This document shows, piece after piece, positions 32,727-37,873 of a stretch of 64,000 nt of DNA. Position 1 is the first letter of the stretch. Each line of letters opens with the position of its first letter. The translations under genes were made by a program, and so were the position numbers. The notes below the pieces were generated by a model. That model was given only the letters and a program-made list of their open reading frames with translations, was not told the DNA's origin and made no database searches. Source of the DNA: Salinarchaeum sp. IM2453 (lineage in GTDB: Archaea > Halobacteriota > Halobacteria > Halobacteriales > Salinarchaeaceae); assembly GCF_019693215.1 (NCBI RefSeq), contig NZ_CP081183.1, positions 2,421,226 through 2,485,225 on the forward strand. The letters are read 5' to 3'.

Positions 32727-34313
32727 ATGTCTGCTGAAGACGACACAGATTTAATTGACTCATTTCGATCTCTCTATCAAGAATATTATGATGAACAAAT
32801 AAGAACGCTTGCTGACAAGCACCCAGATCGACGATCGCTGTATGTCGACTGGCACGATATCGAAGAGTTTGACGCAGAAATTGCTGAGGGGTATGTTAAT
32901 AATCCAGATCAATATCGGCAACGCGCTGAAAAGGCTCTTCAGTTATTTGGACATTCGGTTGAGGCAGATCTTGAACAGGCGAATGTTCGACTGCAAAACC
33001 CTCCAGAGCGGACAGAAATCAACATTCGTGAGATTCAATCGGATGACAAAAGTAAGCTAATTACAACACGCGGAATCGTGCGTGAGGCAACAGAGGTCCG
33101 GACCATATTACAGCACGCTGCGTTTGAATGCCAGCGCTGTGGGACGCTAACGTACGTTGACCAACATAATAACGCACCACAGAAGCCATATGAGTGTCGT
33201 GGCTGTGAACAACAAGGGCCATTCGTGCTAGTCGAAGATGAATCCGAGTTCGTTGACTCACGACGGTTTACAATCGCCGAGGATCCCAATACACTGCCTG
33301 AGGATGCGAAAATAGGGATAATTGATGTTTCCCTTGAAGATGACATTGTAGACGAAGCAAACGCTGGGGACGTGATTCAGCTCACTGGAGTGATTCATCT
33401 TGAGCAAACGGAGAAAGATGGAATGCCGGTGTTTGAGCCATATGTCGAAGCTCACTCAGTGGACAGACTAACCGATGCATCTGAACGAGAGATGCTTTCG
33501 ATGCCGCCAAATAATATTCCAGACCCTGACATAGAAGTGTACGTCGGCACGGCAGTACAGGTCGAAGCAACGACATCCAAGGAACTACACCCCCCATTCG
33601 ATGAAGCAGCAACAAAAGTGAAGTTGGTCACACCATTTGTAGAGGCTCTTGGATGGAATATAGTGGATAATAACTATGTTCAGCTCGGGTACACGACTGA
33701 CCGGACAGACAAGAAAGCTGACTATGCGCTTTTTAGCGGCGGGAGAGAGCCACCAGATGTAATAATCGAAGTGGAGGAATTTGGAGAGCCCCTTGATTCT
33801 GGAAGTAGGCATTCAGATCGAGAATATTCAGAGCCAAAAAGACGACTCTTCGAAAAGCTCCAGGTATTTTCAGCTGAATGGGGAGTGCTTACTGATGGGT
33901 TTGAGTTTCGAGTATTCCGAAACAGGAGAGACAACATTGACGATATAGCATCATTCGGCATGAATGACCTACCAAATAGCGTTATTGAGCATTTGCAACC
34001 ATCGAATCTCCTTGACACGACGCTTGATGGAGTTGACGAGGCGCTTACAAAAAAGCCTCCGGAGAACACAGAACCGCAGGCGACAAGTGGAAGAGTCATA
34101 CAAACGGGGAAAGATGAAACCAGCAATAAAATACGAGATATTATTCGATCAAAACAAGATTCATTCCCAAATGGAGTTCCAGTCGAGAAAGCAGTTGATT
34201 ATGGGAGTTGGAAAACTGAGGCAAGTCGAAAAGAAGTTCGAGAGTATATCGAGCGACTCAAAAAAAGGGGCAGCGTTTACGAGCCAGCAGATGGCCGTCT
34301 GAGGGTGCCATAG
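32727..34313 (+). CDS. MCM N-terminal/C-terminal domains fused to HsdR_N-like nuclease domain
   Basis: The 528-residue protein combines parts not usually found together. Residues about 1-255 match the MCM N-terminal DNA-binding region: helical bundle, TTRGIVREATEVR OB-fold, and a zinc finger with Cys135, Cys138, Cys157 and Cys160. The AAA+ motor that should follow is missing. Instead residues about 295-400 look like the type I restriction HsdR N-terminal nuclease fold (KVKLVTPFVEALGW, ADYALF, DVIIEVEEF with Asp344, Glu348, Glu350; then QVFSAEWGVLTDG). The lysine of the E-x-K is a glutamate. Residues about 455-528 match the MCM C-terminal winged helix. It likely binds DNA like MCM and may cut or regulate it. 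Confidence 0.75.
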   Translation: MSAEDDTDLIDSFRSLYQEYYDEQIRTLADKHPDRRSLYVDWHDIEEFDAEIAEGYVNNPDQYRQRAEKALQLFGHSVEADLEQANVRLQNPPERTEINIREIQSDDKSKLITTRGIVREATEVRTILQHAAFECQRCGTLTYVDQHNNAPQKPYECRGCEQQGPFVLVEDESEFVDSRRFTIAEDPNTLPEDAKIGIIDVSLEDDIVDEANAGDVIQLTGVIHLEQTEKDGMPVFEPYVEAHSVDRLTDASEREMLSMPPNNIPDPDIEVYVGTAVQVEATTSKELHPPFDEAATKVKLVTPFVEALGWNIVDNNYVQLGYTTDRTDKKADYALFSGGREPPDVIIEVEEFGEPLDSGSRHSDREYSEPKRRLFEKLQVFSAEWGVLTDGFEFRVFRNRRDNIDDIASFGMNDLPNSVIEHLQPSNLLDTTLDGVDEALTKKPPENTEPQATSGRVIQTGKDETSNKIRDIIRSKQDSFPNGVPVEKAVDYGSWKTEASRKEVREYIERLKKRGSVYEPADGRLRVP

Positions 34314-35128: not shown

Positions 35129-36916
35129 ATGACAACAAACCGAGACTCATCCAAGCAAGACTACATTGCTGTTATTGACCAAGATAAGGTAACAGAAGAA
35201 GTCAAAGATATTGCAGTGAAATATGATCCACTAAACCGATCAGGACATGAAGGATTTCATGTCACCGAAGATGGGAAATTACACATTGATGATGCACTGG
35301 TCATGGCGGAACACAGACTAATCGAGAAAAAGATCCCAAATGACGCGATAAAGATTATTCCATTACCGACCGCAACAGGAGAACTTGCACATCAGTATGG
35401 AGAAAATGGGTTTCGCTTGTACAATCTTCCTGCACCAGAAGACGGAAGCGTAATTGGGTTACTCGGCCGGAATGGGATTGGAAAAAGTACTGCATTACAA
35501 ATCTTATCTGGCAACCAGATTCCGAACTTCGGGAACACAGAGCAGGCGTCCAGCTGGGAGGAAGCAATCAATACCTTTCGAGGAACCACACTGCAAAACC
35601 ATCTTGAGTCACTGCAGAATGGAGAGATCACAACAGCATATAAGCCACAGCAGATCACGAACTTCCGAAGTGAAGAATCAAGAACCGTTGCAGATGTGAT
35701 GTCTGAACCCACACTTGCTTCTGCTTCACTTCTTGAAATGCTTGACTTATCGGGGCTAGAAGACCGACAAATACGTAATCTGTCAGGAGGGGAATTACAG
35801 CGACTCGCTATCGCGGTGACACTACTCTCAGAGGCAGACTTATACATATTTGACGAGCCGTCATCATTCCTTGATATTGAGCAGCGGTTAATTGTTGGCC
35901 GAGCCATTCGGGAGTGGACTGCTTCGAACGATGCTGCAGCGATGGTCGTTGAGCACGACTTAGCGATGCTTGATTTACTGGCGGATAGTATTCATGTCGT
36001 TTATGGCGAACCTAGTGGATTTGGTGTAATCTCACAGCGACTGTCGACTCGAGAAGGAATTAACCAGTTTTTAGAAGGAAGATTACAGCAGGAGAACGTA
36101 CAGATCCGACAGCGACGTATCGAGTTTCCAGCGCCGGGGGAAAGATCAGTTCCACAGGAGGCAAAACTACTGGGATATCCAACATTGACGCACCAATATG
36201 ATTCGTTCTCATTATCAGTTAACCCCGGAGAGATCCACGCTGGGGAATCACTTGGGATCATCGGAGCAAACGCGTTAGGAAAAACAACATTTGCAAAGCT
36301 ACTTGCTGGAGCTATCGATCCACAGCAGGCAGCAATTCCTGAGGACGTTACCGTATCATACAAACCGCAGTATCTATCTGCGGATAACAAAGAAACAGTA
36401 CAGACACGACTTAGACAAGCCACAGACATTACATCTCAGCGATTTATTACTCAGATTCGTGACCCGTTTGAACTTGAAGAATTATATGATAGGCATCTTG
36501 ATACACTATCAGGCGGAGAGCTACAACGGGTTGGCATTGCGTTGTGCTTCGCTCGAGATGCAGATGTATACGTTCTCGATGAGCCGTCAGCGTTTCTCGA
36601 TGTTGACCGCCGAGCGGCATTTGCAAAGCAAATTCGACGGTTTGCACGGCGACGAAGCAAAGCTGTACTCGTTATTGACCATGATCTGCTGTTGATAAAT
36701 CACATTGCTGATCGGCTTATCGTGTTTGAAGGAACATCTGGAGAAAATGGAGTCGCTAGCTCGCCACAATCTGTTCAATCAGGGATGAATCAATTCCTTT
36801 CATCGATTGGAATTACATTTCGGCGAGATGAGCGAACAGACAGACCTCGTGTTAACAAACCAGACAGTAAACTCGATAGAGAGCAGAAACGTAACAACGA
36901 GTACTATTCTACCTAA
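35129..36916 (+). CDS. ABCE1/RLI homologue lacking all Fe-S cysteines
   Basis: ABCE1 splits ribosomes and has two ABC ATPase halves behind a double [4Fe-4S] domain. This 595-residue protein keeps the layout: the first Walker A GRNGIGKST at 113-121 and signature LSGGELQRLAIA, hinge GINQFLEGRLQQENVQIR, second Walker A GANALGKTTF near 379, second LSGGELQRVGIA, and the terminal RPRVNKPDSKLDREQK. The Fe-S region is recognisable (IAVIDQDKV, KYDPLNRSG, KKIPNDAIKIIPLP) but contains no cysteine; all eight ligands are replaced. It is thus probably a paralogue with changed or lost ribosome function. A canonical copy is presumed elsewhere, which the window cannot show. Confidence 0.88.
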   Translation: MTTNRDSSKQDYIAVIDQDKVTEEVKDIAVKYDPLNRSGHEGFHVTEDGKLHIDDALVMAEHRLIEKKIPNDAIKIIPLPTATGELAHQYGENGFRLYNLPAPEDGSVIGLLGRNGIGKSTALQILSGNQIPNFGNTEQASSWEEAINTFRGTTLQNHLESLQNGEITTAYKPQQITNFRSEESRTVADVMSEPTLASASLLEMLDLSGLEDRQIRNLSGGELQRLAIAVTLLSEADLYIFDEPSSFLDIEQRLIVGRAIREWTASNDAAAMVVEHDLAMLDLLADSIHVVYGEPSGFGVISQRLSTREGINQFLEGRLQQENVQIRQRRIEFPAPGERSVPQEAKLLGYPTLTHQYDSFSLSVNPGEIHAGESLGIIGANALGKTTFAKLLAGAIDPQQAAIPEDVTVSYKPQYLSADNKETVQTRLRQATDITSQRFITQIRDPFELEELYDRHLDTLSGGELQRVGIALCFARDADVYVLDEPSAFLDVDRRAAFAKQIRRFARRRSKAVLVIDHDLLLINHIADRLIVFEGTSGENGVASSPQSVQSGMNQFLSSIGITFRRDERTDRPRVNKPDSKLDREQKRNNEYYST

Positions 36917-37105: not shown

Positions 37106-37873
37106 CTACACAGGGAGAAATGCCGGGTCAACCTCCCGCAGTCGATTCGTATCGCGGAGATAGGAGAATAGTTCCGCGTAGTGATCCACTGATTCAGCCT
37201 GTTCCGACGCCTCTCGCAGCGTTGCCCAGTCCCCGATAAGAGCACATAGGCGCTGTGCTCGGGTCATTGCAACATTTAAACGACGTGGTCCGTCACTCGG
37301 TCTGGCAAGAAAGCCAATCTCCCCATCAGCATTGCTTCGGACAAATGAAATAAGAATAACTGTCCGTTCGCTTCCTTGGAAAGCATCAATCGTGTCTACC
37401 GTTATTGAATTGTGAGCGTCAATCTGATCGGCATCTGCCAATATGTCTTGAATATGTGTCGCTTGAGCTGCATATGGTGTGATGACGCCAATCTCTTTTG
37501 CTGGGATCCCATCATCACGAATTCTGCTGACAAGCGTAGCAACCAAGCTTGCCTCTTCAGAGTTGATAAACGAGGTTCCGGCGGGCTGCTCGGTACCACC
37601 AATGTTGTACCCAACTATTGGCTCTCGATCTGCGATAGACTGTATACTGACACCTGTCTGAAGCGATCGATCGTAAAATTCCCGATTCGGGAAGTATGAG
37701 ATATCCCGGTGCATGCGGTATTGTGTTCGCAACTGAAGTCCAATATCCTCGAATACACCACCGTCAGTATAGATGTGTTCAAATAGCGATAGTCCGGTGC
37801 TTGTTGCTGGTGGAGATTCTGTCTTGCTGAATGGCGGGAGCTGTTGATGATCACCAGCCAAGATTATCCACAT
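37106..37873 (-). pseudogene. truncated DNA2/UPF1-type superfamily 1 helicase
   Basis: Only the second RecA domain remains: ILAGDHQQLPPF (motif III), LRTQYRMH (motif IV), VITPYAAQ, TVDTIDAFQGSERTVILISFVRS split across motif V, and RRLNVAMTRAQR (motif VI). The Walker A and most of the first domain are absent. The same frame meets a TAG stop 6 bp upstream of its first methionine. A complete SF1 helicase would need at least 300 more residues, so it cannot act as a helicase. Upstream sequence (37852-38043) holds a second coding remnant in a different frame. Confidence 0.75.

Follow-up and report, generated by a model that had tools for sequence, protein, structure and literature searches.

The window analysed here is a stretch of 64,000 nucleotides from contig NZ_CP081183.1 of Salinarchaeum sp. 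IM2453 (positions 2,421,226 to 2,485,225). It contains a plus-strand open reading frame (ORF) with an ATG start, 595 codons and no internal stop, which encodes a homologue of the near-universal ribosome-recycling ATPase ABCE1, or RLI (Table 1). The neighbouring genes encode a P-type ATPase, an Rce1-like protein, a short-chain dehydrogenase, an MCM-N/OB protein, a SHOCT protein and a helicase fragment. The MCM-N/OB protein (32727-34313, plus strand, 528 aa) has MCM N-terminal and OB domains, and Pfam detected no MCM AAA+ ATPase domain in it. The helicase fragment (37106-37873, minus strand, 255 aa) had the AAA_12 helicase C-terminal domain as its sole match and resembles a truncated helicase.

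Table 1. The gene and its parts, in coordinates of the window.
Feature	Position	Strand	Remarks
Cysteine-free ABCE1/RLI homologue gene	35129..36916	+	595 aa, stop counted in
N-terminal domain, counterpart of the ABCE1 Fe-S domain	35162..35368	+	Residues 12-80, from alignment
NBD1	35372..36088	+	About residues 82-320; Walker A GRNGIGKST, signature LSGGELQR
NBD2	36161..36808	+	About residues 345-560; Walker A GANALGKTT, signature LSGGELQR
C-terminal hinge-2 region	36815..36913	+	Residues 563-595; TFRRD...RPRVNKPDS...REQK..EYY

The product matched the RLI equivalog model NF009945/PRK13409 with 698 bits over residues 12-594 (cut-off 469). Pfam recognized two ABC_tran domains, and the motifs of both nucleotide-binding domains (NBDs) were intact: Walker B with the catalytic Glu was DEPSSFLD in NBD1 and DEPSAFLD in NBD2, and the H-switches were VEHD and IDHD. 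The equivalog match, the two complete ATP sites and the hinge-2 anchor residues (R-P-R-x-N and a Ser) place the protein in the ABCE1/RLI family, as the initial annotation, which noted two intact ABC halves, had proposed. Hinge 2 is the ribosome anchor of ABCE1 (PMC7196836). Homology to ABCE1 (3BK7 of P. abyssi; 6TMF, the archaeal 30S-ABCE1 complex) extended over the full length, with 45% identity to the P. abyssi protein, and covered the twin NBDs with their catalytic motifs, the hinge-2 motif and several, though not all, ribosome contacts of the N-domain. ABC-F factors (EttA and relatives) are also twin ABC ATPases acting on ribosomes, but the best ABC-F model gave only 174.6 bits (cut-off 380) compared with the RLI score above, and an ABC-F identity was rejected.

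The difference from ABCE1 lies in the eight Fe-S cysteines and the Fer4_RLI match, which were missing. The protein has a single cysteine, in NBD2, and none in the N-terminal domain. When it was aligned with P. abyssi ABCE1, the equivalents of Cys1 to Cys8 were V21, V25, A29, D33, V58, H62, I65 and I69, so that the reported loss of all eight ligands held. Because of this loss and the absence of Fer4_RLI, we call the protein ABCE1-like and cluster-free, and not a canonical ABCE1. The same cysteines were absent from all haloarchaeal homologues aligned (27 of 27 rows, the window protein counted), with nearly identical replacements. Sequencing error was thus ruled out, since every haloarchaeal homologue read showed the same losses.

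The cluster-I cysteines were replaced by the hydrophobic residues V, V, A and I in the haloarchaeal rows. In 15 rows from Nanohaloarchaeota the corresponding residues were I (Cys1), A (Cys2), V (Cys3) and Y (Cys8), and these differing replacements point to a separate, second loss of the cysteines. At two other positions, Cys4 became Asp and Cys6 became His in each of the 49 four-Cys and Cys-free rows. This invariance might mean that the N-domain binds a metal other than a cubane cluster, for example through D33 and H62, and is metal-swapped instead of metal-free. We regard such a swap as distinctly improbable: two residues are few ligands, an Asp-His ion pair explains D33 and H62 equally well, and the cluster-I positions are now plain hydrophobic (V/I/L, V/A/I, A/V and I/Y).

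The residues reported to touch uS12 or rRNA in ABCE1 (PMC7196836, PMC5105147) were partly conserved. P25, R28, S29, K59 and K60 (S. solfataricus numbering) were kept in the window protein, while the rRNA-contact positions K15 and E19 were altered in the Cys-free rows, the window protein among them. Both ATP sites (Walker A and B, catalytic Glu, signature and H-switch) and the Arg, Asn and Ser of hinge 2 were kept in essentially all Cys-free rows. AlphaFold gave the N-domain a beta-alpha-beta-beta-alpha-beta topology at low confidence (pLDDT about 45-75). A fold search with this low-confidence model alone returned weak matches, of which the top ones were ABCE1 and a ferredoxin.

The Salinarchaeum genome (one contig of 2,656,678 bases, 98.6% complete) encoded exactly one further RLI. 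This is the cysteine-containing ABCE1 that the initial annotation had suggested looking for: it lies at G000:C1:890554-892356 on the minus strand and has all cluster cysteines. The remaining Fer4_RLI match in the genome was a short ORF, which may encode Tsr3, judging from the way it reads. The canonical RLI has the same architecture as the window protein and occupies the same cell, but the two are only 45% identical, belong to different clades and differ in the cysteines. They also differ in Walker B of NBD1, DEITPYLD in the canonical RLI versus DEPSSFLD in the window protein. Canonical haloarchaeal RLIs (for example L004) deviated from DEPSSYLD there in 23 of 23 rows, with I/V/L, T/S and P at the deviating positions; the Cys-free copies retain the ancestral form.

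Similar proteins were found by tblastn against plasmids. Eight more Cys-free proteins, 52-63% identical to the window protein, were all on haloarchaeal megaplasmids, in Natrinema, Haloarcula (two plasmids of one strain), Haloprofundus, Haladaptatus, Natronococcus and isolate XH8; two other matches, at 44% identity, were canonical RLIs. Scanning the GTDB species genomes revealed further members in Natrialba, Saliphagus, Halosimplex, Haloplanus, Halorubrum, Haloferax, Halomarina and Halocatena, as well as in two Nanohaloarchaeota metagenome-assembled genomes (MAGs) and two Thermoplasmata MAGs from hypersaline sites. Haloferax denitrificans ATCC 35960 is one natural carrier of the gene. Two Cys-free RLIs were present in Haloarcula sinaiiensis, one on each of two plasmids, and in Natrinema zhouii, both on a single plasmid (listed as L070/L071 and L067/L082). 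A profile built on the Cys-free N-domain found the family in 19 of 392 genomes and 13 of 95 genera of the haloarchaeal order. A canonical RLI accompanied the Cys-free copy in each of the 14 genomes checked, from haloarchaea and Thermoplasmata. Among the 271 Thermoplasmatota genomes with an RLI, a second, Cys-free RLI was seen only in the two hypersaline MAGs, a count based on the number and score of matches, with cysteines read for part of the other genomes.

A patchily distributed second copy could be a decaying pseudogene or a dispensable relic of horizontal transfer. The Haloplanus ruber member (L112, G395:C4:132210-133989) would fit this explanation, as it is split into two overlapping frames and is probably a frameshifted gene. 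The ORFs were, however, intact almost everywhere, and purifying selection was strong, and strongest in the Cys-free N-domain. The dN/dS of this domain was 0.04-0.15, below that of the remainder of the same gene in six of six pairs, and its identity to the window protein was 72-84% in the first set of homologues versus 52-64% for the whole protein. These values indicate that the domain is maintained and not decaying; decay of the family is scarcely credible.

In hypersaline Nanohaloarchaeota the Cys-free form was the only RLI found. Within the GTDB phylum of one of the Nanohaloarchaeota MAGs (G400), 22 of the 28 genomes had an RLI, one apiece. The N-domain had no cysteine in 21 of these, and the canonical eight in the remaining one, from G408. 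The RLI model detected no RLI in the other six genomes (G409-G414), because of either genome incompleteness or true absence. G424, a single contig of 1.05 Mb, had one RLI above the cut-off, which was Cys-free; in the 99.4% of the sequence read, a CxxCxxCxxxCP motif was absent from all ORFs of at least 80 aa. Loss of Fe-S biogenesis was rejected as the cause in this phylum, since G424 has genes for SufC, a cysteine desulfurase and a SufU-like scaffold; it also encodes a protein with an Elp3-like radical-SAM motif. A deep-sea vent, non-halophilic order sits deep in the Nanohaloarchaeota phylum, with the halophiles within (PMC9563170). We infer that G408 is a member of that order, and the halophilic/non-halophilic division that we see agrees with the published account (PMC9563170).

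The Nanohaloarchaeota RLIs (L104, L105 and that of G424) resemble the window protein in their Cys-free N-domain. L104 and L105 are 56-57% identical to it and share the motif DQDxVTDEVRDIA(V/L)KYDPLNRSG. They differ from it in being the sole RLI found, whereas the window protein is a second copy. ABCE1 was reported to be essential in all archaea examined (PMC5105147), so that the Cys-free protein presumably carries out ribosome recycling in Nanohaloarchaeota.

An intermediate form was found in two small families of haloarchaea. The only RLI above the cut-off in G011, G026 and G037 of family f10 and in G012 of family f11 (L010, L009, L008 and L007, respectively) retained Cys1, 2, 3 and 8 and had D, V and H in place of Cys4, 5 and 6. 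A fifth f10 genome, G047 (64% complete), had only a C-terminal RLI fragment. In 2[4Fe-4S] ferredoxins, one cluster is ligated by the first three cysteines of the first motif together with the final cysteine of the second. By analogy, the four-Cys RLI looks like a protein with exactly one cluster retained and is a candidate for a natural one-cluster ABCE1. Contamination during binning is an unlikely source of these genes, as their branching follows the taxonomy of the genomes, with f11 beside f10 and the f10 genera apart. Genes flanking the four-Cys RLI were common to G011 and G037, and the GC content of the four-Cys contigs was 57-63% versus 44-47% in nanohaloarchaea.

We examined the origin of these forms with a tree of 76 RLIs built from the ATPase columns only, the N-domain being excluded so that the tree was independent of the cysteine trait. 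Canonical haloarchaeal RLIs formed one clade (support 100/100). All Cys-free and four-Cys proteins, together with the eight-Cys RLI of G408, formed another lineage (100/99), in which the branch of G408 was long and its position unsure. The haloarchaeal Cys-free proteins fell into two groups within this lineage: clade 1, which includes the window protein (100/100), and clade 2, which was nested with the Nanohaloarchaeota proteins L104 and L105 and a Thermoplasmata copy (100/96). The 15 other Nanohaloarchaeota RLIs were sister to the four-Cys forms (100/99). A local duplication of the Salinarchaeum RLI was thereby excluded, as the window protein lies outside the canonical haloarchaeal clade. Its grouping with nanohaloarchaeal-type RLIs makes it a horizontally acquired xenologue. 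The suggestion of a paralogue or a cluster-free variant was right in that the genome has a canonical RLI and no Fe-S ligand remains, but the protein is not a drifted local duplicate.

A single origin of the Cys-free state was rejected by the AU test (p=0.004). The test did not reject a clade of both haloarchaeal groups with L104/L105 (p=0.17) or a clade of all reduced forms without G408 (p=0.063). The simplest story would be that one cluster was lost early and the other later, on at least two occasions, with at least two transfers between nanohaloarchaeal-type lineages and haloarchaea, perhaps toward the latter.

These results are probably best explained, in our moderately confident view, by a functional, Fe-S-independent ribosome-splitting ABCE1 that is of nanohaloarchaeal-type origin, spread horizontally and most likely serves haloarchaea as a backup. 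Such a form would have arisen stepwise in the nanohaloarchaeal RLI lineage, from eight cysteines through four to none, and would then have been passed, largely on megaplasmids, to haloarchaea that kept their canonical RLI. The twin ATPase would bind terminated or stalled ribosomes together with a release factor or Pelota, close on ATP and split them. ABCE1-driven splitting depends on ATP-dependent closure of the NBDs, which drives the N-domain toward uS12 and h44 (PMC5105147, PMC7196836). From the intact ATP sites, hinge 2 and the five conserved contacts we infer that the N-domain may still act as a wedge, held by a hydrophobic core that takes the place of the two former [4Fe-4S] clusters, and presumably folds without metal. 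Splitting without clusters is thus suggested by the residues kept. Counting against cluster-free function, the cluster cysteines of Rli1 are important for viability in yeast (PMC8153317), and the changes at K15 and E19 count against it as well.

Another explanation is that the haloarchaeal Cys-free RLI descends from a recycling factor but has become an accessory ribosome factor, acting in rescue or hibernation or blocking the canonical RLI. The constant company of a canonical RLI in the haloarchaea checked, the occurrence in few genomes and often on plasmids, and the changes at some rRNA-contact positions would all fit such a role. The NBD1 signature in clade 1 was often LSGGERQR instead of LSGGELQR, though the window protein keeps the latter. 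We nevertheless consider an accessory role unlikely, because both ATP sites are intact and the 56% identical relatives L104 and L105, with the same N-domain motif, occur without another RLI. Hibernation in particular, which the initial annotation had named as one possible role, found no support, given the retained ATPase motifs and hinge-2 residues and the homologues that are the sole RLI of Nanohaloarchaeota.

A backup would be useful to haloarchaea if it recycled ribosomes whenever Fe-S clusters suffer damage or are in want of supply, for example under NO, oxidants, copper or iron limitation. In yeast, reactive oxygen species (ROS) and copper disrupt the supply of Fe-S clusters to Rli1 (PMC8153317, PMC5654725); by analogy, a cluster-free RLI would keep ribosome recycling going where this supply fails. 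On some plasmids the Cys-free RLI lay within about 18 kb of a gene for the Fe-S repair protein Ric or of a split DUF542 and hemerythrin pair, and the same regions had genes for DUF2249, truncated hemoglobin, multicopper oxidase, heavy-metal ATPase, redoxin, tellurite resistance and sulfur transfer. DUF2249, FrdB, cupin and universal stress genes recurred near several clade-1 copies, many of which are syntenic and so not independent. This neighbourhood, restricted to a subset of related plasmids and absent around the window copy, hints weakly at a stress-backup role; since the neighbours in the window give no such hint, the role stays hypothetical. An extra tryptophan-tRNA ligase gene, whose product has one or two cysteines, lay within 8 kb of the Cys-free RLI in several haloarchaea (L069, L072, L079, L080 and L084) and may be another spare of this kind.

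The plasmid location and patchy distribution might also be expected of a resistance or competition gene directed against an inhibitor, toxin or virus that hits canonical ABCE1 or its Fe-S domain. Transposases, an integrase and toxin-antitoxin-like PIN/AbrB genes were indeed nearby on some plasmids. No consistent defence or toxin partner adjoined the Cys-free RLI, however, no viral carrier was found in a scan of IMG/VR with two short peptide patterns, and the protein is the sole housekeeping copy in Nanohaloarchaeota. These observations make a resistance gene very improbable, and we prefer the backup for ribosome recycling.

There is a precedent for the loss of a cluster from the information-processing machinery of a halophile. 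TFE-beta of Haloferax volcanii no longer has an Fe-S cluster that is normally essential, and its complex still forms and works (PMC5861453). TFE-beta is an unrelated protein, however, and unlike the window protein it is single-copy and not mobile. In the open-access literature, as distinct from subscription journals and preprints, we found no paper on a cluster-free ABCE1 and none that joins Nanohaloarchaeota and ABCE1.

The view that two clusters are essential to ABCE1 everywhere, from which the initial annotation had started, appears to be contradicted by the Cys-free family. It is tentatively proposed, at close to even chances, that the clusters are dispensable: a whole halophilic archaeal phylum would recycle its ribosomes with a cluster-free ABCE1, two haloarchaeal families with a one-cluster protein as their sole ABCE1, and other haloarchaea would trade a copy on plasmids as an insurance that is proof against Fe-S stress. 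Database names hide the change. PGAP labels the Cys-free proteins 'RLI' with the loss unflagged, so that Fe-S inventories based on names are wrong for these organisms. The family also implies that a core translation factor can pass between a symbiont-type lineage and the group of its hosts. A cluster-free ABCE1 seems to be an experiment that nature has already carried out, and the natural series of eight, four and zero cysteines on a shared ATPase core would provide a direct test of the role of the clusters, whether in lever rigidity, in iron or redox sensing or in the fold alone.
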